Source: Armatimonadota bacterium
GTDB taxonomy: Bacteria > Sysuimicrobiota > Sysuimicrobiia > Sysuimicrobiales > Humicultoraceae
NCBI GenBank assembly: GCA_031459855.1
Contig: JAVKHP010000001.1
Span: 1,222,059-1,286,058 of the forward strand
Direction: 5' to 3'
DNA: 64,000 nt
In this document: in pieces, positions 617-14,021 of the stretch
How the letters are laid out: the number at the start of each line of letters is the position of its first letter
How positions within the stretch are numbered: the stretch's first letter is position 1
Translations under genes and position numbers: made by a program
The notes under the pieces: model-generated
What the model was told of the DNA's origin: nothing
Database searches by the model: none
The model's input: the letters and a program-made list of their open reading frames with translations, nothing else

Positions 617-702
617 GCTCAGGATGCGGCTCGACGAGATGCGCGAGTCACCCGGCACCGTGGCCGACAGGGTGGTCGTCGCGCGGGCTCAGGATGCGGC
701 TC
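617..702. repeat. Short direct repeat around the 3' end of the ligase gene
   Basis: The 16-base word GCTCAGGATGCGGCTC occurs at 617-632 and again at 687-702, exactly 70 bases apart. The right copy contains the stop codon and last codons of the ATP-dependent ligase; the left copy lies in the downstream gap. This looks like the remnant of a small tandem duplication of the gene end. Confidence 0.6.
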
Positions 703-2431
703 TCTTCAGGCGCTCCCGGTACATGGCGAGGAGCTCGGCCACCGTGGTGGCGTCGGTGGGGCCCTTGTCGTCCCGCACGCGCACGAACCGCGGGAACCGA
801 ATGGCGAGCCCCGCGCCCGCCCGGACGGCTCCCCACCCCGCGGTGTGGATGGGGCTCAAGGTGATCTCCGCGCCGATCACCTCGAACACCAGCGCCGGTT
901 CGACCCACCGGTCGGGGACCAGACGACTGTCGACCCGGGCGGGGCGCTCGGGCCGCAGGTGCGGGCGCAAGAGATCGGGCAGCGTGCGCAGGAACTCGTC
1001 GGTGAACCCCGAGCCGAGCTTGCAGACCGTGGGGAACGTGCCCGACGGCGCATCGTAGGCGGCCATGAGCAGCGCGCCGTAGGTGCCGGCGCGGCGGCCG
1101 CGCCCGTGTAGCGCCCCGACGACGACCAGGTCGACCGTGTCGGTCAGCTCGCTGCGGTACTCGCGCTTGAACTTGATCCACAGCCACCCGCGGGCGCCGG
1201 CCTGGTAGACACCGCCCGCCGCCTTGCAGATCAGGCCCTCGCAGCCATCGGCGACGGCCTGCTGGAAGAACTCCTCGAGGGCCTCCACCGACGTCACTTC
1301 GCGTCCGGTGGCGAGGTGGAACCGGTCGTTGGGGGCGATGGTCCGCTCGAGCCGCCGCCGCCGCTCACTGTACGGCTGCTCGGTTAGATCCTGGCCGTCG
1401 ACGTAGAGCAGGTCGAACGCGTACACGGCTGCAGGCAGCGCGGCCATCGCTTCCTCGATACCGTACTTGCGGCGGCGGCGCATCAGGTCCTGGAAGGGGC
1501 GCAGGTCGCCGGTGTCGGGGTCGACAGCCACGACCTCGCCCTCCAGGATGGCGTCCTTCGCCTTGACGTGACGGCGCACCAGGGCCACGACGTCGGGGTA
1601 CTGGGTGGTGATGCGTTCCAGCCGGCGCGAGTAGAGCTCGACCTGGGTGCCCTGCTTGTGGATCTGCAGCCGCTCGCCGTCGTACTTGTACTCGGCCGCG
1701 CAGCGGCCGCCGAGCTTGGCCAGGATCTCGCGGGGATCGGCGAGCCGCTCGGCCAGCATCGGGCGGATCGGCTTGCCCACCACGACATGGACCTTGCGCA
1801 CGGCAGCCAGCCCGCCCCGCGCCACCGTGGCGGCCACGTAGCCGAGGTCGGAGGTGAGGTTGTAGGCGCGCTCCAGCGCGGTGCGGGCGGGGCGGCCGCC
1901 GCCGAACACCTCCGCCAGCGCGTCCAGCACCGTCATGTCGCCGACGCCCAGGCGCAACTTGCCGGTCACGGTGCGCACCAGGTACTTGGCTTCCAGGGGT
2001 GTGGCCCGGCGCAGCAGGTCGGCGATGGCGGCGAGCTTGGCGGCCTGCGCGCCCTTGCCCGTGGCGCGTGCTGCGGCTTCCAGCGTCTTGTGGACGTGCT
2101 CGACCGTGAGGGCCGGTCCGGCAGGACGCACCCGCTCGAGCAGCGCCTCGGCCACCGTGCCGAGGTCTCCGGCGCGGGCCAGGCGCCGGGCGACTTCCTC
2201 GGGCGCCACACCTGCGGCCTGGGCCACGGCCCGCACCGCCAGCTTCTCGGCTACGCCGACGTCGAGGCCGGCAAAGCCCGGGGCGAGCTGGCCCTGGGTG
2301 AGGTAGACGACCAGGGGGAGCACGCGTTTGGGCGTCGCGCGGAACAGGTCGGCGAGCAGGCGCGTCATAGCCAGCCGCGCGGTGGTGGCCTCGATGCGGG
2401 CGTAGGCCTCGGCCAGCTCCCGGTAGCGCAT
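689..2431 (-). CDS. lig: ATP-dependent DNA ligase (archaeal/eukaryal type)
   Basis: A 580-residue protein of the size of archaeal ATP-dependent ligases, which seal 3'-OH/5'-phosphate nicks through an AMP-lysine intermediate. An N-terminal helical DNA-binding domain spans about residues 1-210. The adenylation motif EYKYDGER follows with the acceptor lysine at about K249. Later come EGEVVAVD (motif III region), AFDLLYVDG, EGLICKAAGGVYQAGARGW (motif IV region) and WIKFKREY (motif V). The C-terminal OB-fold is present. The ATG is preceded by AAGGA. It is divergent from the alkyltransferase gene at 2530, which suggests a shared repair context. Bacteria normally also have a NAD-dependent ligase for replication, so this one is probably a repair enzyme (inference). 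Confidence 0.95.
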   Translation of the reverse strand: MRYRELAEAYARIEATTARLAMTRLLADLFRATPKRVLPLVVYLTQGQLAPGFAGLDVGVAEKLAVRAVAQAAGVAPEEVARRLARAGDLGTVAEALLERVRPAGPALTVEHVHKTLEAAARATGKGAQAAKLAAIADLLRRATPLEAKYLVRTVTGKLRLGVGDMTVLDALAEVFGGGRPARTALERAYNLTSDLGYVAATVARGGLAAVRKVHVVVGKPIRPMLAERLADPREILAKLGGRCAAEYKYDGERLQIHKQGTQVELYSRRLERITTQYPDVVALVRRHVKAKDAILEGEVVAVDPDTGDLRPFQDLMRRRRKYGIEEAMAALPAAVYAFDLLYVDGQDLTEQPYSERRRRLERTIAPNDRFHLATGREVTSVEALEEFFQQAVADGCEGLICKAAGGVYQAGARGWLWIKFKREYRSELTDTVDLVVVGALHGRGRRAGTYGALLMAAYDAPSGTFPTVCKLGSGFTDEFLRTLPDLLRPHLRPERPARVDSRLVPDRWVEPALVFEVIGAEITLSPIHTAGWGAVRAGAGLAIRFPRFVRVRDDKGPTDATTVAELLAMYRERLKRAAS

Positions 2432-2529
2432 GGCAGGTCCTTCCCATGCAAGAGTTCAGCCATGGGCCGCAGAAAACCCTGCAGCGGACAGGGACGGAGG
2501 GACCCGTGCGTCTGGGAGGAGTGAGGGCT

Positions 2530-3204
2530 ATGACCGACGCGAAGCGCCCGCACCGCGTGCTGGCGCGTGACGCGACAGGCGACCGGCGGAGCGCACCCGA
2601 CGTGCGAATCCGATTCACCACGCTCGGCGTGCCCCTGGGCCGCCTGCTGATCGCCGCCACCGACCGCGGCGTGTGCGCGGTGCGGATGGGCGACAACGAC
2701 GCTGCGCTGACGCGGGGGCTGGCGCGGGAACACCCGCACGCGACGCTCGTGCGCGACGATCGCGGGCTGCGCCAATGGGCCCGCGCCGTCCTGACCTACC
2801 TCAGGGGCCGGCGGCCGCACCTGGCGCTCCCCCTGGACGTGCGCGGCACGGCGTTCCAGCAACGGGTGTGGCGGGCACTGCAGCGCATCGGGTATGGCGA
2901 GACCCGCACCTACGGGCAGATCGCGCGGGCCGTCGGCGATTCCAGGGCCGCCCGCGCCGTCGCCCGTGCGTGCGCCACGAACCCGGTGGCGCTGGTCATC
3001 CCCTGTCACCGCGTGGTGCGCGGCGACGGCCAGCCCGGCGGGTACCGATGGGGTGCGCGGCGGAAGCGCTGGCTGCTGGCCCGCGAGGCCATGAGGCGCC
3101 GCGGTCGCGGTGTAGCGTTCCAACGCGCTGGCATGCACAGCGGCGCCGGGGGCGCGCCCGCGCTCAGCGCCCGCAGGACGTCGTCGCAGGACTTCGCCAC
3201 TTGA
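2530..3204 (+). CDS. ogt: Methylated-DNA--protein-cysteine methyltransferase (Ada/Ogt C-terminal type)
   Basis: This suicide repair protein moves the alkyl group from O6-alkylguanine to its own cysteine. The acceptor motif PCHRVV is present with C159 (counting from the chosen start), and the preceding helix-turn-helix region reads TYGQIARAVG. An N-terminal ribonuclease-H-like domain is present at about residues 20-95. An in-frame ATG exists at 2446, but the ATG at 2530 follows GGAGG at a good distance and gives a 224-residue product; the 28 earlier residues do not look like protein. It is divergent from the ligase. The last 30 or so residues beyond the catalytic domain are a low-complexity tail. 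Confidence 0.93.
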   Translation: MTDAKRPHRVLARDATGDRRSAPDVRIRFTTLGVPLGRLLIAATDRGVCAVRMGDNDAALTRGLAREHPHATLVRDDRGLRQWARAVLTYLRGRRPHLALPLDVRGTAFQQRVWRALQRIGYGETRTYGQIARAVGDSRAARAVARACATNPVALVIPCHRVVRGDGQPGGYRWGARRKRWLLAREAMRRRGRGVAFQRAGMHSGAGGAPALSARRTSSQDFAT

Positions 3205-3255
3205 GTGCGGTAGAGAGACGGTAGCCTGGCATCTCACACCCGCCGAGGAGTCTGC

Positions 3256-4593
3256 ATGGAGACGCGCACCACCACCGCGTTGATCCAGACCGATCAGGCG
3301 CACCTGATCCACCCTCTGCACCATCCGGCCGACCACGCGCCGCCGCTGGTCTTCGTGGAAGGGCAGGGGGCCGTGCTGCGCGACGCCGATGGGCGCGAGT
3401 TCATCGACGGCCTCGCGTCGCTGTGGAACGTCAACGCCGGCCACGGCCGCGCGGAACTGGCCGAGGCCGCCGCCGCGCAGATGCGTCGGCTGGCCTTCGC
3501 CTCGAACTACGTGGGGTTCACCAACGAGCCCGCGGTGCGGCTGGCCGAGCGACTGCTCCAGCTGGCCTACCCCAACCTCTCGGGCGTCTACTTCACCACG
3601 GCCGGCGCCGAGTCCAACGAGGCGGCGTTCAAGACGGCGCGGTACTACTGGAAGCGGCGGGGGCTGCCCACCAAGACCAAGATCATCGCCCGCATCCACG
3701 CCTACCACGGCGTCACGCTAGCGGCGATGAGCGCCACCGGCATGGCGTCGTATCACACGATGTTCGCGCCCACGGTCCCGGGCTTCGTGCACGTCCTGCC
3801 CTCGTACCCGTACCGGTACCCCGGCTCGATGGCCGAGGCGCTGGAGGAGGCGATCCTGCGCGAGGGGCCCGACCAGGTGGCGGCGTTCATCGCCGAGCCG
3901 GTCATGGGTGCGGGGGGCGTGATCCCGCCGACACCCGACTACTTCCCCAAGGTGCGCGAGATCTGCGACCGCTACCAGGTGCTGTTCATCGCCGACGAGG
4001 TCATCACCGGCTTCGGGCGGACGGGCCGCTGGTTCGCGCTGGGCCACTGGGGTGTGCAGCCCGACATCGTGAGCTTCGCCAAGGGCGTGACCAGCGCGTA
4101 CCTGCCGCTGGGTGGCATCATGGTGTCGCGGGCGATTCACCAGGCGATCCTGGACGCGCCGCCCGCGGAGCGCTTCATGCACGCGGCGACCTACTCGGGC
4201 CACCCGGTGTGCTGTGCCGTGGGGCTCCGCAACCTGGAGATCTTCGAGCGCGAAGGGCTGGTGGACCGGGCGGCGGCCATGGGGCGCCGGTTGCTGGCAG
4301 GTCTGGAGAGCCTGCGCGAGTTCCCCGTCGTCGGGGACGTGCGCGGCCTGGGGCTCATGGCCGGCGTGGAGCTCGTCGAGGACCGCGCGGCCAAGACCCC
4401 GGCCGTAGGCCTGGGTGCCCGCGTGCTGGCCGAGGCCCGCGCCCGGGGGCTCGTCACCCGCGTGCGGCCGGGCCAGACGGGCGACTATCCCATCGGCGAC
4501 ACCATCTGCCTGGCCCCTCCCCTGGTCATCACCGAGGCGCAGGTGGACCGGATCGTGGAGATCCTGCGGGAGTCGATTCGCGCGGTGCTCTGA
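3256..4593 (+). CDS. Class III aminotransferase (omega-amino acid:pyruvate type)
   Basis: A 445-residue PLP enzyme. It carries the class III signature FIADEVITGFGRTG, followed by the PLP lysine at K276 in SFAKGVTSAYLPLGG. The substrate-loop features (N-terminal HPLHHPADHAPPLVF, then LWNVNAGHGRAELAEAAAAQ) are those of beta-alanine/putrescine/taurine:pyruvate transaminases, which turn omega-amines into semialdehydes. The exact amine donor cannot be read from sequence. The start follows GAGGAG. It is convergent with the aminotransferase at 4726-6108 and separated from it by a hairpin. Confidence 0.9.
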   Translation: METRTTTALIQTDQAHLIHPLHHPADHAPPLVFVEGQGAVLRDADGREFIDGLASLWNVNAGHGRAELAEAAAAQMRRLAFASNYVGFTNEPAVRLAERLLQLAYPNLSGVYFTTAGAESNEAAFKTARYYWKRRGLPTKTKIIARIHAYHGVTLAAMSATGMASYHTMFAPTVPGFVHVLPSYPYRYPGSMAEALEEAILREGPDQVAAFIAEPVMGAGGVIPPTPDYFPKVREICDRYQVLFIADEVITGFGRTGRWFALGHWGVQPDIVSFAKGVTSAYLPLGGIMVSRAIHQAILDAPPAERFMHAATYSGHPVCCAVGLRNLEIFEREGLVDRAAAMGRRLLAGLESLREFPVVGDVRGLGLMAGVELVEDRAAKTPAVGLGARVLAEARARGLVTRVRPGQTGDYPIGDTICLAPPLVITEAQVDRIVEILRESIRAVL

Positions 4594-4622
4594 AAGCTCG
4601 GCGCCGCCGGCTGTCCCGCATC

Positions 4623-4638
4623 GGCGCTCCGCAGCGCC
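4623..4638. terminator. Hairpin between convergent aminotransferase genes
   Basis: A perfect 6-bp stem (GGCGCT/AGCGCC) with a CCGC loop lies 30 bases after the stop of the upstream gene. There is no U-tract, as is usual in such GC-rich DNA. The position between convergent genes suggests a bidirectional transcription-end element. Confidence 0.35.
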
Positions 4639-4725
4639 AGGTGCGGGCCTGCGGACCGGATCTGCGCCGTGGAGATCACGAGGTGGACCGCACCGGTCTG
4701 ACGCCGGGGCTGCCGGGCGACCGTC

Positions 4726-6108
4726 TCAGCGCACTGCGGCCATGATGCGGTCGACGACGCGGCGCGCCGCCGTCAGCGCCTCGTTCACCTCGTCCGGGCC
4801 CATGGGCAGGCTCGTGGCCATCATGCCGCGGGGCGCACAGAAGACGCCTTCCAGCAGCAGGCCCAGGTGGAAGGCGGCGGTCAGGACGCGGTCGGCCGTG
4901 CGGGCCGCGCGGACGTTGACCACCTCGGCGTCGGTGAACAGGACGGTGAGCAGCGACCCGATGCCCGTCACGCGGGCGGGAAGCCGTGCCTCGTCGAACA
5001 GGGCCTGCAGCCCCGCGCGCAGCGTCTCGCCCGTGCGGTTGCACCGCGCGATCGCCTCGGGCGTCAGCAGCCGCAGGCCCGCGATCCCGGCGGCGACCGT
5101 GACGGGGTTGGCGTTGAACGTCCCCGACTGTGCCAGCGCCCCCGGCCGGCGGGGGTCGTAGAGATCCATGATCTCCCGGCGGCCGCCAAACGCGCCCACC
5201 GGAAAGCCGCCGCCGATGATCTTGCCCAGCACCGTCAGATCGGGGCGCACGCCGAACAGGCCCTGAGCGCCGTGGTAGTCGAGGCGGAAGCTGATCACCT
5301 CGTCGAAGATCAGCACGATGCCGAGCTCCGCGGTGATGGCGCGCAGGAACGGGAGGAACCCCTCTTGCGGCGGAATCGTGCCCGCCACGCCCTGGACCGG
5401 TTCCACGATCAGCGCGGCGATCTCCCCGGCCTGTGCGCGCAGCGTGGCCTCCACGGCTGCGGGGTCGTTGAACGGGACCACCAGGACGTCGCCGGCGACG
5501 CCGGCAGGGATGCCCGGACCCTCGGGGACCGCCACCGGCCGGCTGGCCGGGCCGGCGCGGACGGGGTCGGACTGCACGCTGATCGCCACCGCATCGTACG
5601 AGCCGTGATAGCCGCCTTCCATCTTGACGATCTTGTCGCGACCGGTGAACGCCCGGGCCGCGCGGATGGCGTGCATCGCGGCTTCCGTGCCCGAGTTGGC
5701 GAACCGGATGCGCTCGACCGACGGCAGGCGCGCGCAGAGCATCTCGGCCAGGGTGAGCTGCGCGGGGGTGGGCGCGGCGAACCCCGTGCCCTGTGCGATC
5801 TGGGCGCTTGCGGCGGCGACGATCTCCGGATGGGCGTGTCCCCAGATCATCGCGGTGTAGTTGCCGAGCAGGTCCAGGTACGTGTGCCCGTCGACGTCAG
5901 CGATCCGGCAACCCTCGCCGCGGGTGATGAACACGGGGAACGGCTCGTAGTGCGTGACCGTGCGCGTGTCGCCACCGGGCAGGGATTCCCGGGCATGCGC
6001 GGCCAGGGCCGCGGATCGCGGGTGGCGGCGGACGTACTCGTCCACGATCTGCGCGTGCGCGCGGGCCGCTGCACGGGCCAGGGGCGTGGGGCCGGTACGA
6101 TTGGGCAT
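4726..6108 (-). CDS. Class III aminotransferase, glutamate-1-semialdehyde aminomutase-like
   Basis: A 460-residue PLP protein with the order seen in glutamate-1-semialdehyde 2,1-aminomutases: SLPGGDTRTVTHYEPFPVFITRGEG near the N-terminus, FANSGTEAAMHAIRAARAFTGRDKIVKMEGGYHG in the cofactor-phosphate region, LIFDEVISFR with the PLP-ring Asp, and the Schiff-base lysine K296 in LGKIIGGGFPVGAFGG. The heme-pathway HemL is the closest textbook relative. The isolated position and the variant N-terminus fit the many GSAM-like enzymes of secondary amino acid metabolism equally well, so no hemL symbol is given. The ATG at 6108 is preferred; the frame stays open upstream without protein-like composition. 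Confidence 0.85.
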   Translation of the reverse strand: MPNRTGPTPLARAAARAHAQIVDEYVRRHPRSAALAAHARESLPGGDTRTVTHYEPFPVFITRGEGCRIADVDGHTYLDLLGNYTAMIWGHAHPEIVAAASAQIAQGTGFAAPTPAQLTLAEMLCARLPSVERIRFANSGTEAAMHAIRAARAFTGRDKIVKMEGGYHGSYDAVAISVQSDPVRAGPASRPVAVPEGPGIPAGVAGDVLVVPFNDPAAVEATLRAQAGEIAALIVEPVQGVAGTIPPQEGFLPFLRAITAELGIVLIFDEVISFRLDYHGAQGLFGVRPDLTVLGKIIGGGFPVGAFGGRREIMDLYDPRRPGALAQSGTFNANPVTVAAGIAGLRLLTPEAIARCNRTGETLRAGLQALFDEARLPARVTGIGSLLTVLFTDAEVVNVRAARTADRVLTAAFHLGLLLEGVFCAPRGMMATSLPMGPDEVNEALTAARRVVDRIMAAVR

Positions 6109-6361
6109 ACTGGAAGGTTCTGGGCTCGCCCCTGCTTCCCCTATCGGGGCTTCCCTCCCGGGTGCTGCAGGATGCCGGGGCATTTGTGCCTGCGGTCGCG
6201 ACCGCGTCTGAGGCGCGACGGCGTCTGGGGATGAGGCGTACCGGGGAGTCTGCGCACGCCGGGTGCGACTCCCTGTGGGACCAGACCAACGGGGCGCTCG
6301 TACTCCGTCTGGGGCTGGTGAGTGCGCACGATGGACGTACGCGTCCGACGGACCGTCCGGG

Positions 6362-7195
6362 TCATGGCCCGCGGGTGTCTGCTGCGCGGGCATCGCGCGC
6401 CGCGCGCCTGGCCTGGCGCAGTGGCTCGGGCGTCAGCGCGGGGCCCACGAGGGCCAGCACCACCGTCGCCGCCACGTCGGGATCGGTGCGCCAGGCCGCA
6501 TGCACCGCCAGCGGTCGCACGCCCGGGCGCACGCGCAGCCAGTAGCCCACGTGCTCCCCGTCGAGCAGCAGCGGGCTGCGCGCGCCCGGCGTGTCGGCGG
6601 GTGCGGCGCCGGAGGCCAGCAGCGGCCTGCTGGTCACGCCGATCGTCGGCAGGTCGAGTCGTGCCCCAAGATGGAGCGCGAGGCCCGCGCGGCGTGGGTG
6701 GTCGCGGCCGGTGGCGTTGACCAGGAGGACCTGCGGGCGCAGCCGCAGGGCTCGGACGGCCGCTTCCAGCAGCGGGCCCTCCCGCAGCGCCAGCAACCCG
6801 GGTTCGTACGGTGCGCCGGCCGCGCCGCGGACCGCCGCGGCGTCGACCAGGCGGCCGTCGGCAAGCAGCGCAGCACCAGCCCATCCGGCGTCGCCCGCCT
6901 GGCCGCGGCCCGTCTTGCCGCGCGCGAAGCACACAAAGCACCCCGCCGCCATCCGCACGCCGCTGGGATCGGGCAGCCAGGGTGCCGGCGTGGCCCTGGC
7001 GAGCGCCTCTTGTGCGGCCACCAGGTCCGCGGACGTGCGTGGCCATGGCCCCGGTTCAGGCCACGCGGACTCGGCCACCGACCACGAAGGCTCCGGCAGG
7101 GGCGGTGGCAGGAGGTCGTCGAGGACGGCGAGCCGGGCGCGGCCAGGCCGCCGATCGCTGGCCTGCGGTCCGCAGGGTGGCAGGGTGTTGCGCAT
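6362..7195 (-). CDS. Endonuclease V-like protein with altered active site
   Basis: A 277-residue protein whose second half follows endonuclease V (deoxyinosine nuclease) closely: YEPGLLALREGPLLEA, HPRRAGLALHLGARLDLPTIGVTSRPL and a late VHAAWRTDPDVA. Two catalytic positions differ. The strand normally reading AG-x-D-V-x-F is AGCFVCF, so the first metal Asp is Phe. The Asp of the DGHGxxHPR motif is Asn (VNATGRDHPR). The Glu of REGP and the His of HPRR remain, and the usual lysine after TIGVA is missing. The first 80 residues are an extension not found in short bacterial EndoV. It is probably a non-nuclease nucleic-acid-binding paralogue or an enzyme with changed chemistry. No clear ribosome binding site is present. 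Confidence 0.75.
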   Translation of the reverse strand: MRNTLPPCGPQASDRRPGRARLAVLDDLLPPPLPEPSWSVAESAWPEPGPWPRTSADLVAAQEALARATPAPWLPDPSGVRMAAGCFVCFARGKTGRGQAGDAGWAGAALLADGRLVDAAAVRGAAGAPYEPGLLALREGPLLEAAVRALRLRPQVLLVNATGRDHPRRAGLALHLGARLDLPTIGVTSRPLLASGAAPADTPGARSPLLLDGEHVGYWLRVRPGVRPLAVHAAWRTDPDVAATVVLALVGPALTPEPLRQARRAARDARAADTRGP

Positions 7196-7337
7196 GGCGT
7201 CGTCAAGATTACTCTACGCGCCCGTGGCCGCGCCGCGCACGACGCAGGGTGGACGCTGCATGCCGACGGTGGTGGCCCGGCGGACGGCCTGGCAGCGCGG
7301 CCCGGTACGCAACACGGTTGGAAGGGACTGGACGTCC

Positions 7338-8096
7338 GTGCCCCGACGCCCGGCCGATGCCATCAAAGTGGGCTGCTGCGGGTTTCCCCGTCGGCTCGAA
7401 GAGTACGCCCGGCATCTGGACGCCGTGGAGGTGCAGCAGACGTTCTACCGGCTGCCCCGTCTGCAGACGGTGGAACGCTGGCGGGCGCGCGTGCCGCCCT
7501 CGTTCACGTTCACCCTCAAGGCGTGGCAGCTCGTCACCCATCCGCCGACCAGCCCCACGTACCGGCGGCTGGGACGCGCGATCCCCGAGTCCCGGTGGGA
7601 CCGCTACGGGTTCTTCGCGCCCAGCGACGAGGTGGCCGAGGCGTGGGCCCAGACGCTGGTGGTGGCGCGGGTGCTGCAGGCCCCCGTCGTGCTCGTCCAG
7701 TGCCCGGCCAGCTTTGTGCCCACGCGGGTGCACGTCGCGCGCTTGCGGCGGTTCTTCCGCACCGCGCCGCGCGACGGGCTGGCGATCGCCTGGGAGCCGC
7801 GCGGCGACTGGCCGCCCACGCTGGTGGCCCGTCTGTGCCGCGAGCTGGGGCTGATCCACTGCGTCGATCCCCTGGCCGATGCGAGCCGCCACGGCCGGCC
7901 TCACTACTTCCGCCTCCATGGCCGCACGGGCTACCGGTACCGCCACACCGACGACGACCTGGCGATGGTGGCCGCGGCCTGCCGCGGGCCGGCGTACGTC
8001 TTCTTCAACACCATCGCCATGTGGGACGACGCGCTGCGCTTCCGACGGCTGGTCGACGACGCCGGGGGTGCGCCCCACCGGGCGAGGGACCGGTGA
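7338..8096 (+). CDS. DUF72 family protein (YecE-like TIM-barrel)
   Basis: A 252-residue protein of the DUF72 family. The N-terminal strand reads KVGCCGFPRR in place of the more usual IGTSGWSY. Then come YARHLDAVEVQQTFYRLP, FTFTLKAWQLVTHPPTSPTYRR, IAWEPRGDW, HYFRLHGRTGYRYRH and YVFFNTIAMWDDALRF, which match the family in order. The family folds as a TIM barrel and has no established reaction. The GTG at 7338 follows GGAAGGGA and starts right before the first barrel strand; an in-frame ATG at 7260 would add 26 residues. It is divergent from the endonuclease V-like gene. Confidence 0.85.
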   Translation: MPRRPADAIKVGCCGFPRRLEEYARHLDAVEVQQTFYRLPRLQTVERWRARVPPSFTFTLKAWQLVTHPPTSPTYRRLGRAIPESRWDRYGFFAPSDEVAEAWAQTLVVARVLQAPVVLVQCPASFVPTRVHVARLRRFFRTAPRDGLAIAWEPRGDWPPTLVARLCRELGLIHCVDPLADASRHGRPHYFRLHGRTGYRYRHTDDDLAMVAAACRGPAYVFFNTIAMWDDALRFRRLVDDAGGAPHRARDR

Positions 8097-11345: not shown

Positions 11346-12608
11346 CTACTGGTAGAGGAGGAACCCTTCCCGGAGCTTCAGGAACCGCTGCAACGCGGGC
11401 TGCCAGCGCGCCACGATCGTCGCCGCGTCGTCGCCGCGGAGCAGCCCCAGCCGTACGTCCTTGGTGCCCCACACCAGGTCGAACAGGTACGGACCCCGTC
11501 GCGGCGCGGTGAAGCGCAGACGGTCGCCGTGCAGGCGCCGGATCTCCACCAGGATGTACACCAGGGTCGTTGACGGGCGGAAGACCGCCGGATCGGTGAC
11601 GTGGAGCCGCACGCCGTACCAGACGCGCCCGGTGCGGGGATGCGGCAGCGCCGAGGCGGCGAAGCGCACGCCGGGCAGCCCGTACCGGTTGAGGCGTGCT
11701 GCCAGCCGGTGGCCGTCGAGCCACGGCGCCAGGACCACCTGGAAGCGCGAGTCGGTGGCGACGCCGTTCCACAGGTTGGTGCCGTCGACCGGCCCGGTGG
11801 CCGCGTAGGTGAAGACGGCGTCCGGTCCGGTGATGCCCGGCGACGGGTTGATCCACGGCAGGCCGGTGTCGCCCCAGCGCATCGTGCGGGTCCACCCGTC
11901 CATGGGCACCACGGTCAGGTCCGCACCGATCCCGAACGCCCCGTTGTAGAGCCGGGCCAGCTCGCCGATCGTCATGCCGAACACGTAGGGGATGGGGTAC
12001 AGGCCAATGAACGAGCGCAGCGCCGGTTCCAGCACCGGGCCGTCCACGATCGTCCCGCCCATGGGGTTGGGGCGGTCGAGGACGACGACCTTCTTGCCTG
12101 CCTCGCGGGCCGCGGCCATCACCAGGGCCATCGTGGACGTGTAGGTGTACGCGCGCACGCCCACGTCCTGCAGGTCGACCAGCAACGCGTCGACACGCGC
12201 CAGCATCTGACGCGTGGGGCGAAACGTGCCGCCGTAGAGGCTGAAGACCGGCGTGCGGCCCGGAATGGTGGGGACGGCCTCCCCCGCATCGTACGTGCCG
12301 TCGAGTCCGTGTTCGGGCGCGAACAGCGCCGTCAGCCGGACCTCCTCGACGTCGGCCAGCAGGCGGGCCGAGGGGGTCCCGTCCCGATTGACCCCCGCCT
12401 GGTGCGTCACCAGACCGAGGCGACTGCCGCGCAGGGCGCGCAGGTCTTCGAGCAGACGGTCGATGCCGGGGCGCACCGCAGGGGGCGCGCCACGGGGCCC
12501 GACGGCCTGTAGCGCAGCCAGCGGCCGGGCGGCTGGCCAGAGCATGGCGGCCAGGGCTACGCACCATACGACCGGGAAGCACACGACCGGTGAGGACACG
12601 CGGCGCAT
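11346..12608 (-). CDS. namZ: Secreted DUF1343/NamZ family exo-beta-N-acetylmuramidase
   Basis: A 420-residue protein with a signal peptide (hydrophobic residues about 8-30) and the DUF1343 hallmarks: GSRLGLVTHQAGVNRDG, LTALFAPEHGLDG, GRTPVFSLYG, VDALLVDLQDVGVRAYTYTSTM, VVVLDRPNPMGG, GLPWINPSPGI and NLWNGVATDSRFQV. NamZ of Bacillus subtilis removes N-acetylmuramic acid from peptidoglycan fragments outside the cell, so a role in cell-wall recycling or scavenging is likely. A perfect AAGGAGG precedes the ATG. It is divergent from the amidohydrolase gene. Confidence 0.9.
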   Translation of the reverse strand: MRRVSSPVVCFPVVWCVALAAMLWPAARPLAALQAVGPRGAPPAVRPGIDRLLEDLRALRGSRLGLVTHQAGVNRDGTPSARLLADVEEVRLTALFAPEHGLDGTYDAGEAVPTIPGRTPVFSLYGGTFRPTRQMLARVDALLVDLQDVGVRAYTYTSTMALVMAAAREAGKKVVVLDRPNPMGGTIVDGPVLEPALRSFIGLYPIPYVFGMTIGELARLYNGAFGIGADLTVVPMDGWTRTMRWGDTGLPWINPSPGITGPDAVFTYAATGPVDGTNLWNGVATDSRFQVVLAPWLDGHRLAARLNRYGLPGVRFAASALPHPRTGRVWYGVRLHVTDPAVFRPSTTLVYILVEIRRLHGDRLRFTAPRRGPYLFDLVWGTKDVRLGLLRGDDAATIVARWQPALQRFLKLREGFLLYQ

Positions 12609-12839
12609 ACGGCCTCCTTGTTTCGACGCGGGCGTCGGGGGAGCCTTGTCTGCACTGTGCCCATCGAGTGGGGTGGACCCGCCTGGCACACCGTCCGCCG
12701 GCGGCCCGGGGGAAACGGGGCCGGTATGGGGAACTGAAAGCGGCGCGATCTCGCCGACGGACGATCGGACGCGCCGGCACCGCGGCGCCGGGCGGTATCG
12801 GCGGAGCAGTCCGCGGCGTCGAGAGGACGGTGGGGCAGG

Positions 12840-14021
12840 GTGTGGATCGCGGTGAAGGCGCAGCACATCCTCGACGGCACGGGCCGGCCGCCCATCGAGC
12901 ACGGGGTGGTGCTGATCGAAGGCGAGCGCATTCGGGCCGTGGGGCGGCAGGCGGACGTGGCGATTCCCGAGGGCGCGCAGGTCTACGACTGCGGCACGCA
13001 CACCGTGCTGCCGGGGCTGGTCGACGCGCACTCGCACGCCTCGATCGTTCCCGGGCTGGGCGACCAGATCGGGCAGTTGCGCCAGCCGCCCGCTCGCCAG
13101 CTGCTGCGGGCGGTGCGGAACCTGCGCACGGACCTGCGCGCGGGGGTCACCACGATGCGGGTCGTGGGCGAGGAACACTTCATCGACATCGAGCTCCGGG
13201 ACGCCATCGCGGCCGGCCGCCTGCTGGGGCCCCGGCTGCGCGTCGCGACGCGCCCCATCACCGCGCGCCACGGGCACGGCGCCGCGCTCACCTTCTCCGA
13301 CGGCGAAGACGCGATTCGCCGGCACATCCGCGAGAACGTGGCCGCCGGCTGCGACCTGATCAAGCTCTTCATGACCGGCGGCATCTCGAGCACCGCGGGC
13401 GGTGCCCTGTGGTATGCGTATACGCCGGCCGAGCTCGCTGCTGCCGTGGACGAGGCCCACCGCAACCAGCGGCCGGTCGCCGTGCACGCGCACGGCGGCC
13501 CGGGCCTGCGGCTGTGCATTGCGGCGGGCGTCGACACCATCGAGCACGGCAAGCTGGCCACGCGCGACGACCTGGAGGCCATGCGCCGTCGAGGCATCTG
13601 GCTGGTCACCAACAACGCGGTCAGCGGACACCCCGAAGGCATCGAGCGCGGCGACGGGCACAACCCGGTGATCATGGCCAAGCTGCGCGAGGCCCGGGCG
13701 CATGCCCCCGAGAACTTCCGCCACGTGCTCGAGAGCGGCGTGCGGTGGGCGTTGGGCACCGACGCCATGCACGGCCTGATGTGGTGGGAGATCGCCCAGG
13801 TGGTGGCGTGGGGCGCCGATCCGCACGACGCCATCCTGGCCGCCACCCGCCGGGCGGCCGAGGCCATCGGCATGGGCCAGGAGGTCGGCAGCCTGGAGCC
13901 GGGCAAGCTGGCCGACCTGATCAGCGTCGACGGTGACCCGCTGCGCGACGTCACCTGCCTGCAGCGCGTGGGCCTGATCCTCCAGGCCGGGCGGCGCGTC
14001 GACACCCTCTCGCCCGACTGA
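12840..14021 (+). CDS. Metal-dependent amidohydrolase (imidazolonepropionase-like/Xaa-Pro dipeptidase group)
   Basis: A 393-residue cytosolic hydrolase of the amidohydrolase superfamily. The HxH metal motif is in LPGLVDAHSHAS, followed by LIKLFMTGGISS, the metal His in VAVHAHGGPG, IEHGKL, and the late Asp in ALGTDAMHG. The C-terminal strand-returning domain reads LEPGKLADLISVDGDPLRDV. Relatives cleave cyclic amides, prolidase substrates or aryl-amide compounds. The start is GTG with only a weak GA-rich site. Confidence 0.88.
   Translation: MWIAVKAQHILDGTGRPPIEHGVVLIEGERIRAVGRQADVAIPEGAQVYDCGTHTVLPGLVDAHSHASIVPGLGDQIGQLRQPPARQLLRAVRNLRTDLRAGVTTMRVVGEEHFIDIELRDAIAAGRLLGPRLRVATRPITARHGHGAALTFSDGEDAIRRHIRENVAAGCDLIKLFMTGGISSTAGGALWYAYTPAELAAAVDEAHRNQRPVAVHAHGGPGLRLCIAAGVDTIEHGKLATRDDLEAMRRRGIWLVTNNAVSGHPEGIERGDGHNPVIMAKLREARAHAPENFRHVLESGVRWALGTDAMHGLMWWEIAQVVAWGADPHDAILAATRRAAEAIGMGQEVGSLEPGKLADLISVDGDPLRDVTCLQRVGLILQAGRRVDTLSPD

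Follow-up and report, generated by a model that had tools for sequence, protein, structure and literature searches.

The gene at 6362..7195 on the minus strand of the window (the whole stretch of 64,000 nucleotides that was analysed) is a single open frame, P0001, of 277 amino acids, with a GC content by codon position of 0.83/0.64/0.86. P0001 matched the Pfam family Endonuclease_5 (PF04493) with an E-value of 8.6e-34 and a score of 117.4 bits against a cut-off of 23.4, so the assignment to the family is not due to chance. The match spans residues 107–262 and begins only at profile position 39, because the stretch containing the first catalytic aspartate is divergent. The scores against the NCBIfam endonuclease V (EndoV) equivalog models were below both cut-offs, at 106.4 against 230 bits and 82.3 against 300 bits. 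P0001 was the sole EndoV-family match found in the source genome (3.19 Mb, 97.7% complete). The original prediction described an extra N-terminal part of 80 residues, which held for residues 1 to about 48 and failed for residues ~49–81, as these form the ordinary EndoV N-terminal region (WP..L..Q..L) in the profile alignment. Residues 1–46 (7058..7195, minus strand) are without conservation in most relatives and are perhaps translated only in part. Translation might alternatively begin at an in-frame GTG at residue 40, and the best matches in the 18 other genomes of the same phylum that carry this form begin at residues 13–49, 16 of the 18 at 40–49. The conserved EndoV-fold domain, residues 47–277 (6365..7057, minus strand), was the part used in both alignments described below and in the structural model.

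The AlphaFold model of the domain had a pLDDT of 95.8 and was compared with EndoV from Thermotoga maritima (TmEndoV) bound to inosine-DNA (6ozf_B), giving a Z-score of 31.1 and 1.7 Å over 218 residues. The best match outside EndoV was 2qh9_A (Z 14.2), which PMC11585767 calls AfuEndo_dU, followed by Argonautes at Z about 12. By its predicted structure P0001 is an EndoV-fold protein, and together with the Pfam match this bears out the EndoV fold motifs first recognised in the sequence alone.

The active-site motifs all lie on the minus strand and are numbered here as in TmEndoV, via the profile alignment. The CFVCF motif (6926..6940) places its first phenylalanine on the metal ligand Asp43, with cysteines at 42 and 45. 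The metal ligand Glu89 is present (LREGP), and the motif VNATGRDHPRR (6689..6721) carries Asp110 to Asn, Gly111 to Ala, a new Arg114, a new Asp115 in place of Ala and the shared His116, so that the metal set Asp43/Glu89/Asp110 reads F/E/N. The motif GVTSR (6626..6640) contains a new Thr138 in place of Ala, and serine replaces the phosphate-binding Lys139, which together with His214 holds the 5' phosphate in EndoV. These alignments agree with the earlier reading of the first metal Asp as Phe, of the Asp of DGHG as Asn and of the Lys as absent, and they add changes beyond that reading, at Gly111, Ala115, Ala138, Ser211 and His214. Further along, HAAWRT (6485..6502) contains a new His211 in place of Ser, Trp214 where TmEndoV has His, Arg215 and Thr216. 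The base-flipping wedge Tyr80 is kept in PYEPG (6797..6811), which also holds the start of the base pocket, Gly83. The lesion pocket of TmEndoV is given in PMC4650699 as G83, L85, G111, G113, G121 and L142; P0001 keeps all of these except G111, which is now Ala.

The gene order in the window is an ATP-dependent DNA ligase (689-2431, minus strand), an O6-methylguanine methyltransferase (2446-3204, plus strand), two class-III aminotransferases, P0001 and a divergent neighbour of the DUF72 family (PF01904; open stretch 7209..8096, plus strand, in-frame ATG at 7260). The stretch 689-8096 is thus repair-flavoured within 7.5 kb, broken by the two aminotransferase genes. Domains of the NamZ exo-N-acetylmuramidase type lie at 11346-13826 on the minus strand. 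PADLOC models at an E-value of 0.01 matched neither P0001 nor its DUF72 neighbour. Among 100 loci of related genes searched (10 genomes twice; L051 and L152 canonical), relatives of the ligase were found near one and relatives of the methyltransferase near none. No partner gene common to several phyla was found among the ORF clusters listed for 81 loci. Besides EndoV and antisense frames, these clusters comprised an ABC-transporter ATPase (16 loci), a dehydrogenase (8) and a membrane protein (6), and the remaining ones (4–10 loci) were antisense or low-complexity frames or reflected local synteny. Twenty neighbouring ORFs, chosen by a GC heuristic at 11 loci, gave 17 with a Pfam match and three without, and no top family occurred twice.

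The DUF72 neighbour was followed across genomes that carry the same EndoV-like form, referred to from here on as the branch. DUF72 matches lay no more than 1 kb away in 7 of the 71 branch genomes and in none of 70 genomes with canonical EndoV (Fisher p 0.013); for distances of up to 10 kb the counts were 9 of 71 and 0 of 70 (Fisher p 0.003). Distances were read by eye between match edges, the Fisher values ignore kinship and the canonical genomes were G014 and 69 of about 97 actinomycetes. Six of the seven cases within 1 kb are divergent pairs from the same phylum as P0001, and the seventh is an actinomycete (G522; L191/L198) in which the branch gene and DUF72 stand in tandem on one strand. 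DUF72 is consequently a possible partner, the link being partial and not general. One DUF72 protein, Tm1631, resembles endonuclease IV. DNA binding in the role of a repair endonuclease has been predicted for Tm1631 (PMC4939058, PMC3828134). Other arrangements were met singly. In Bacterium HR29 (L082:4543-6720) the branch frame directly follows an RtcB gene on the same strand, and an RtcB relative was found near one other branch locus (L138) of the 100 searched. In G060 (L021:1420-3177) a canonical EndoV is fused to a poly(A)-polymerase/CCA-adding-enzyme head domain (PF01743, E-value 3.9e-18), and G249, a member of that genome's family, carries an EndoV frame close to it in length (586 aa).

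Within the phylum of P0001 the branch form was present in 19 of 43 genomes, canonical EndoV in one other (G014) and both forms in none. The contigs of species-level genomes were scanned with the own-phylum alignment, which found 85 loci, of which 80 were kept. Ten of these are own-phylum genomes counted already; among the other 70, 69 carry the branch motifs in whatever part of the gene is present, and L152 is canonical. By label these loci extend, besides Sysuimicrobiota and Armatimonadota, to nine further phyla (Actinomycetota, Acidobacteriota, Verrucomicrobiota, Fidelibacterota, Deinococcota, Myxococcota, Chloroflexota, Dormiibacterota and Bacillota), many of the genomes being metagenome bins whose labels may be wrong. 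When a branch HMM was run on 386 genomes, 20 scored at least 304 bits (G256 and the 19 own-phylum genomes), and no other match in the list exceeded 162.2 bits. The branch gene was found in 10 of 396 evenly drawn actinomycetes, the centre genome G113 included. The branch is widespread but uncommon. Named carriers include Kribbella, Haloechinothrix, Actinopolymorpha, Jiangella, Methylacidimicrobium and Anaeromyxobacter.

The Pfam EndoV family was matched above its cut-off in all 42 branch genomes checked, which were picked from the 80 loci, and branch and canonical EndoV occurred together in two of the 42. Canonical EndoV was counted, by score class, in ~97 of the 396 actinomycetes and in ~138 of the 386 broader genomes. 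A mutual exclusion between the two forms is no more than suggestive, the binomial figures ignoring both kinship and incomplete genomes. A phage, virus or plasmid origin was rejected, as no branch member was found in any of these. The partial tblastn matches on plasmids (four records) and phages (two) had 38–43% identity, the three with an annotation being named nfi/deoxyribonuclease V, and no relative of the branch was found in the viral contigs searched.

In a phylogenetic tree, 62 of the 65 branch rows aligned below separated from 22 canonical rows on a single stem of 1.96 changes per column with an SH-aLRT of 100; the tree was a quick one, unrooted and made without bootstrap, and many of the canonical rows are odd in composition. 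The 25 close pairs listed, a number of them being one genome fetched twice, had dN/dS ratios of 0.17–0.45, and the branch is under purifying selection. The frame in the window and all 65 aligned branch rows are open across the aligned domain. The occurrence in 19 of 43 own-phylum genomes, the single supported stem and the purifying selection rule out a lone decayed copy, and with the spread over many phyla they confirm the conserved non-canonical branch that had been proposed from P0001. One member (L147 from G140, Acidimicrobiia) consists of two Pfam pieces and looks broken; a single DUF72 match in G140 is likewise broken into two neighbouring pieces. Frameshifts or assembly errors are possible there.

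The active site was compared column by column in an alignment (A2) of 65 branch rows, 11 of them from the own phylum, with 22 canonical EndoV rows. A2 drew on 64 of the 80 scanned loci, leaving out the canonical L152 and 15 loci with an HMM match not spanning the domain, and the canonical set excluded the partial L024 and the duplicate L013. Two patterns, L[LIV]V[ND]ATGRD and G[LF]LALREGP, served as peptide queries in the scan for A2; the columns under these patterns are therefore biased and their conservation is inflated. Asp43 and Lys139, both invariant in the canonical rows (22/22), are absent from the branch: position 43 is F51 W5 Y4 V2 A2 I1, with Asp in 0/65, and position 139 is H29 D21 R7 N5 S1 A1 Q1, with Lys in 0/65. 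The two other metal ligands are retained in part, position 89 being E53 V4 A4 L2 I2 and position 110 being D35 N28 S1 H1. Four replacements are present in every branch row (A115 to D, A138 to T, S211 to H and H214 to W) and a fifth, L114 to R, in 61 of the 65; position 214 is His in only 13 of the 22 canonical rows. The wedge Tyr80 is kept in 64/65, as are pocket residues G83, L85, G121 and L142 in 65/65 and G113 in 64/65, with Ala at pocket position Gly111 in 64/65. Arg88 is found in 65/65 and Arg118 in 64/65. Most branch rows also have a longer b1-b2 loop containing G.G..GD..W.

These columns were also read in members collected without the peptide patterns. In the 19 own-phylum members D115, H116, T138, H211 and W214 are each present 19/19; position 43 is Phe in all 19, and position 110 is Asn in 11 and Asp in 8. 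Whole-genome HMM searches gave ten full-length members (L176, L187-L194 and L196), of which L187 and L196 are also in A2. In the eight new ones D115, H116, T138, H211 and W214, as well as Y80, G113, G121 and L142, are all 8/8; position 43 is F5 W2 Y1 with Asp in 0/8, and K139 is found in 0/8. Position 83 is G6 A2 and position 85 is L6 M2 in these eight, so conservation at both pocket positions is looser than in A2. A wider comparison of 74 branch rows (one of which, L196, repeats L135) with 26 canonical rows identified eight positions conserved in the canonical proteins and lost in the branch: 43, 87, 111, 115, 138, 139, 144 and 211. Six of the eight (43, 111, 115, 138, 139 and 211) are catalytic, phosphate or pocket sites or adjoin them. 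Eleven positions are newly fixed in the branch. Seven of them are 111, 112, 115, 138, 144, 211 and 214; of the remaining four, one belongs to the N-terminal helix and three are C-terminal, at the end of the protein. The new fixed residues include an Arg in the last helix.

The cysteine pair of CFVCF, which the original prediction singled out as a possible conserved signature, holds within the own phylum, where the second Cys is present in 19/19 and the first, and hence both, in 18/19. Across the branch both Cys are present in 42/65 rows of A2 and in 4 of the 10 HMM-found members (two of the ten also being in A2), and the pair was rejected as a defining feature of the branch.

Taken together, the comparison with TmEndoV suggests that the canonical Mg-dependent cleavage, which falls at the second phosphodiester 3' of inosine, has very probably been lost from the branch, since Asp43 and Lys139 are gone throughout and mouse EndoV cannot do without the first Asp, its D52A protein being reported in PMC4842958 to cut none of the substrates tested there and to give stronger band shifts. 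The retention of the base pocket acting on nucleic acid is rather probable, and a base-binding role, as originally considered, is possible in view of the wedge Tyr and the five of six pocket positions kept in nearly every row of A2. The new polar and aromatic residues, fixed at or beside the old catalytic and phosphate sites, would fit a rebuilt site at least as well as a reader of bases. Our favoured reading, held tentatively and at somewhat less than even confidence, is that the branch is an old offshoot of the EndoV fold whose Mg2+ nuclease centre was dismantled and replaced by a new catalytic centre. A flipped-out base or nucleotide would likely still enter the old EndoV pocket, perhaps with a shifted specificity, as Gly111 is now Ala and the nearby Ala138 is now Thr. 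As a committed guess, the fixed Asp115-His116 and His211-Trp214 set would be the new working centre and would process the bound nucleotide by another chemistry, either strand cleavage without the DEDD set or base removal, the protein working on its own in repair or clean-up. The alignment to TmEndoV, with the roles published for 139, 214 and the pocket, suggests that the new residues share one site. The replacement residues do not drift but are fixed, an argument for the site being at work, and the absence of a cross-phylum partner among the genes surveyed fits an autonomous enzyme. Several observations stand against a rebuilt centre: an acidic remnant persists at positions 89 and 110, of the 11 newly fixed positions four are found away from this site, and the invariant polar residues also fit pure binding. 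A more specific version, doubtful as it stands, is that the scaffold was converted once into a lesion-processing enzyme that makes no use of metal-dependent DEDD chemistry, with an invariant Asp-His/His-Trp centre acting on a flipped deaminated or modified nucleotide in the old pocket, for example an EndoV-fold glycosylase or a metal-free strand cleavage enzyme, possibly paired with the DUF72 TIM barrel in some lineages.

The nearest competitor, a somewhat unlikely one, is that the branch protein is a pseudonuclease of the EndoV type, which would bind inosine or another deaminated base in DNA or RNA and mark or shield that base while leaving the strand uncut. The pocket and wedge are largely kept while the catalytic residues are gone, the mouse D52A protein gives stronger band shifts after losing its cutting, and EndoV supplied with Ca2+ instead of Mg2+ serves as an inosine-binding reagent according to PMC11273454. 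The same source describes calcium as essential for EndoV binding, however, and the branch is without the first metal ligand. Also against this reading, the old catalytic cleft is fixed for new residues instead of being free to drift, pocket Gly111 is almost always Ala, and the survey found no recruitable partner gene common to phyla. The rebuilt centre is slightly favoured over such a silent reader.

It is improbable that the ligand of the old pocket has become a free nucleotide, a nucleoside or another small molecule and that the protein has no nucleic-acid role. The loss of the phosphate-binding Lys139 and of His214, the changes at Gly111 and Ala138, and the lack of a repair context common outside the own phylum would suit such a ligand. 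Because G83 and L85 each vary in two of the eight pattern-free members, the pocket is less conserved there, and this reading was weighed higher, and the rebuilt centre and retained pocket lower. Conversely, the strand-separating wedge Tyr80 (64/65 and 8/8) and the near-invariant Arg88 and Arg118 are retained, and the ligase, methyltransferase and DUF72 genes lie nearby in the window. Ordinary EndoV activity with tolerated substitutions is very improbable: the Pfam score is well above its cut-off, Glu89 mostly and Asp110 often are still acidic, and the first acidic residue is reported as dispensable in AfuEndo_dU (PMC11585767), but neither D43 nor K139 occurs in any of the 65 rows, the corresponding mouse mutant cuts none of its tested substrates and the first NCBIfam score is far under its cut-off. 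A decaying copy heading for loss, to which the absent catalytic residues and the broken L147 from G140 might point, can hardly be reconciled with the open frames, strict conservation, low dN/dS and one deep branch.

Comparison with known systems places the branch closest to Endonuclease V itself (Nfi; PF04493/COG1515), with which it shares the whole-domain fold, the wedge Tyr, most of the base pocket and the HPRR motif. It differs from Endonuclease V in the replacement of the first metal Asp and the phosphate Lys throughout, in the Glu and second Asp that are not maintained, in the newly fixed Asp115, Thr138 and His211 and the Trp at 214, and in the longer b1-b2 loop. Endonuclease dU (DUF99, PF01949) has an EndoV-like fold and an incomplete DEDD set in common with the branch, and AfuEndo_dU is reported to remain active after D10A (PMC11585767). 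Endo_dU thus cuts without the full DEDD set and is a precedent for an EndoV-like fold with other chemistry. The match of P0001 to PF01949 was below the cut-off (E-value 0.3, 10.9 bits against 32.7), and the EndoV N-terminal helix is present in the branch but missing from Endo_dU. Position 214 of TmEndoV corresponds to D210 of EcEndoV in PMC4650699, and we infer it to be the fourth DEDD position; the branch has Trp at 214 in 65/65 rows and so probably has Trp where Endo_dU carries a positively charged His, Arg or Lys, a difference that weighs against the rebuilt centre. Inactive members of the Argonaute/PIWI proteins have an RNase H-like fold and bind nucleic acid without cutting. The likeness of the branch to these is at the level of the fold only, as it is a single 231-residue domain without guide-binding domains. 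No description of such a branch was found in the titles and abstract openings of the best-matching open-access literature, subscription journals lying outside this search, and PMC3985635 handles EndoV sequences as one cluster. Nothing decisive came from PMC8526164 or PMC12199146.

The branch matches the EndoV Pfam family, yet the residues with which EndoV cuts are gone and others are fixed instead. On the alignments presented here this is a little-noticed bacterial branch of EndoV that has lost its cutting parts and holds a different, fixed set of residues where they stood, and it offers a natural experiment in how an RNase H-like nuclease turns into something else. Of the 42 branch genomes checked, 40 gave no canonical EndoV beside the branch gene, so in these the repair step that would be assumed from the Pfam match would rest on the branch protein. 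The carriage of the gene by named strains brings experimental tests within reach. The branch protein probably handles damaged bases in a manner not yet described.
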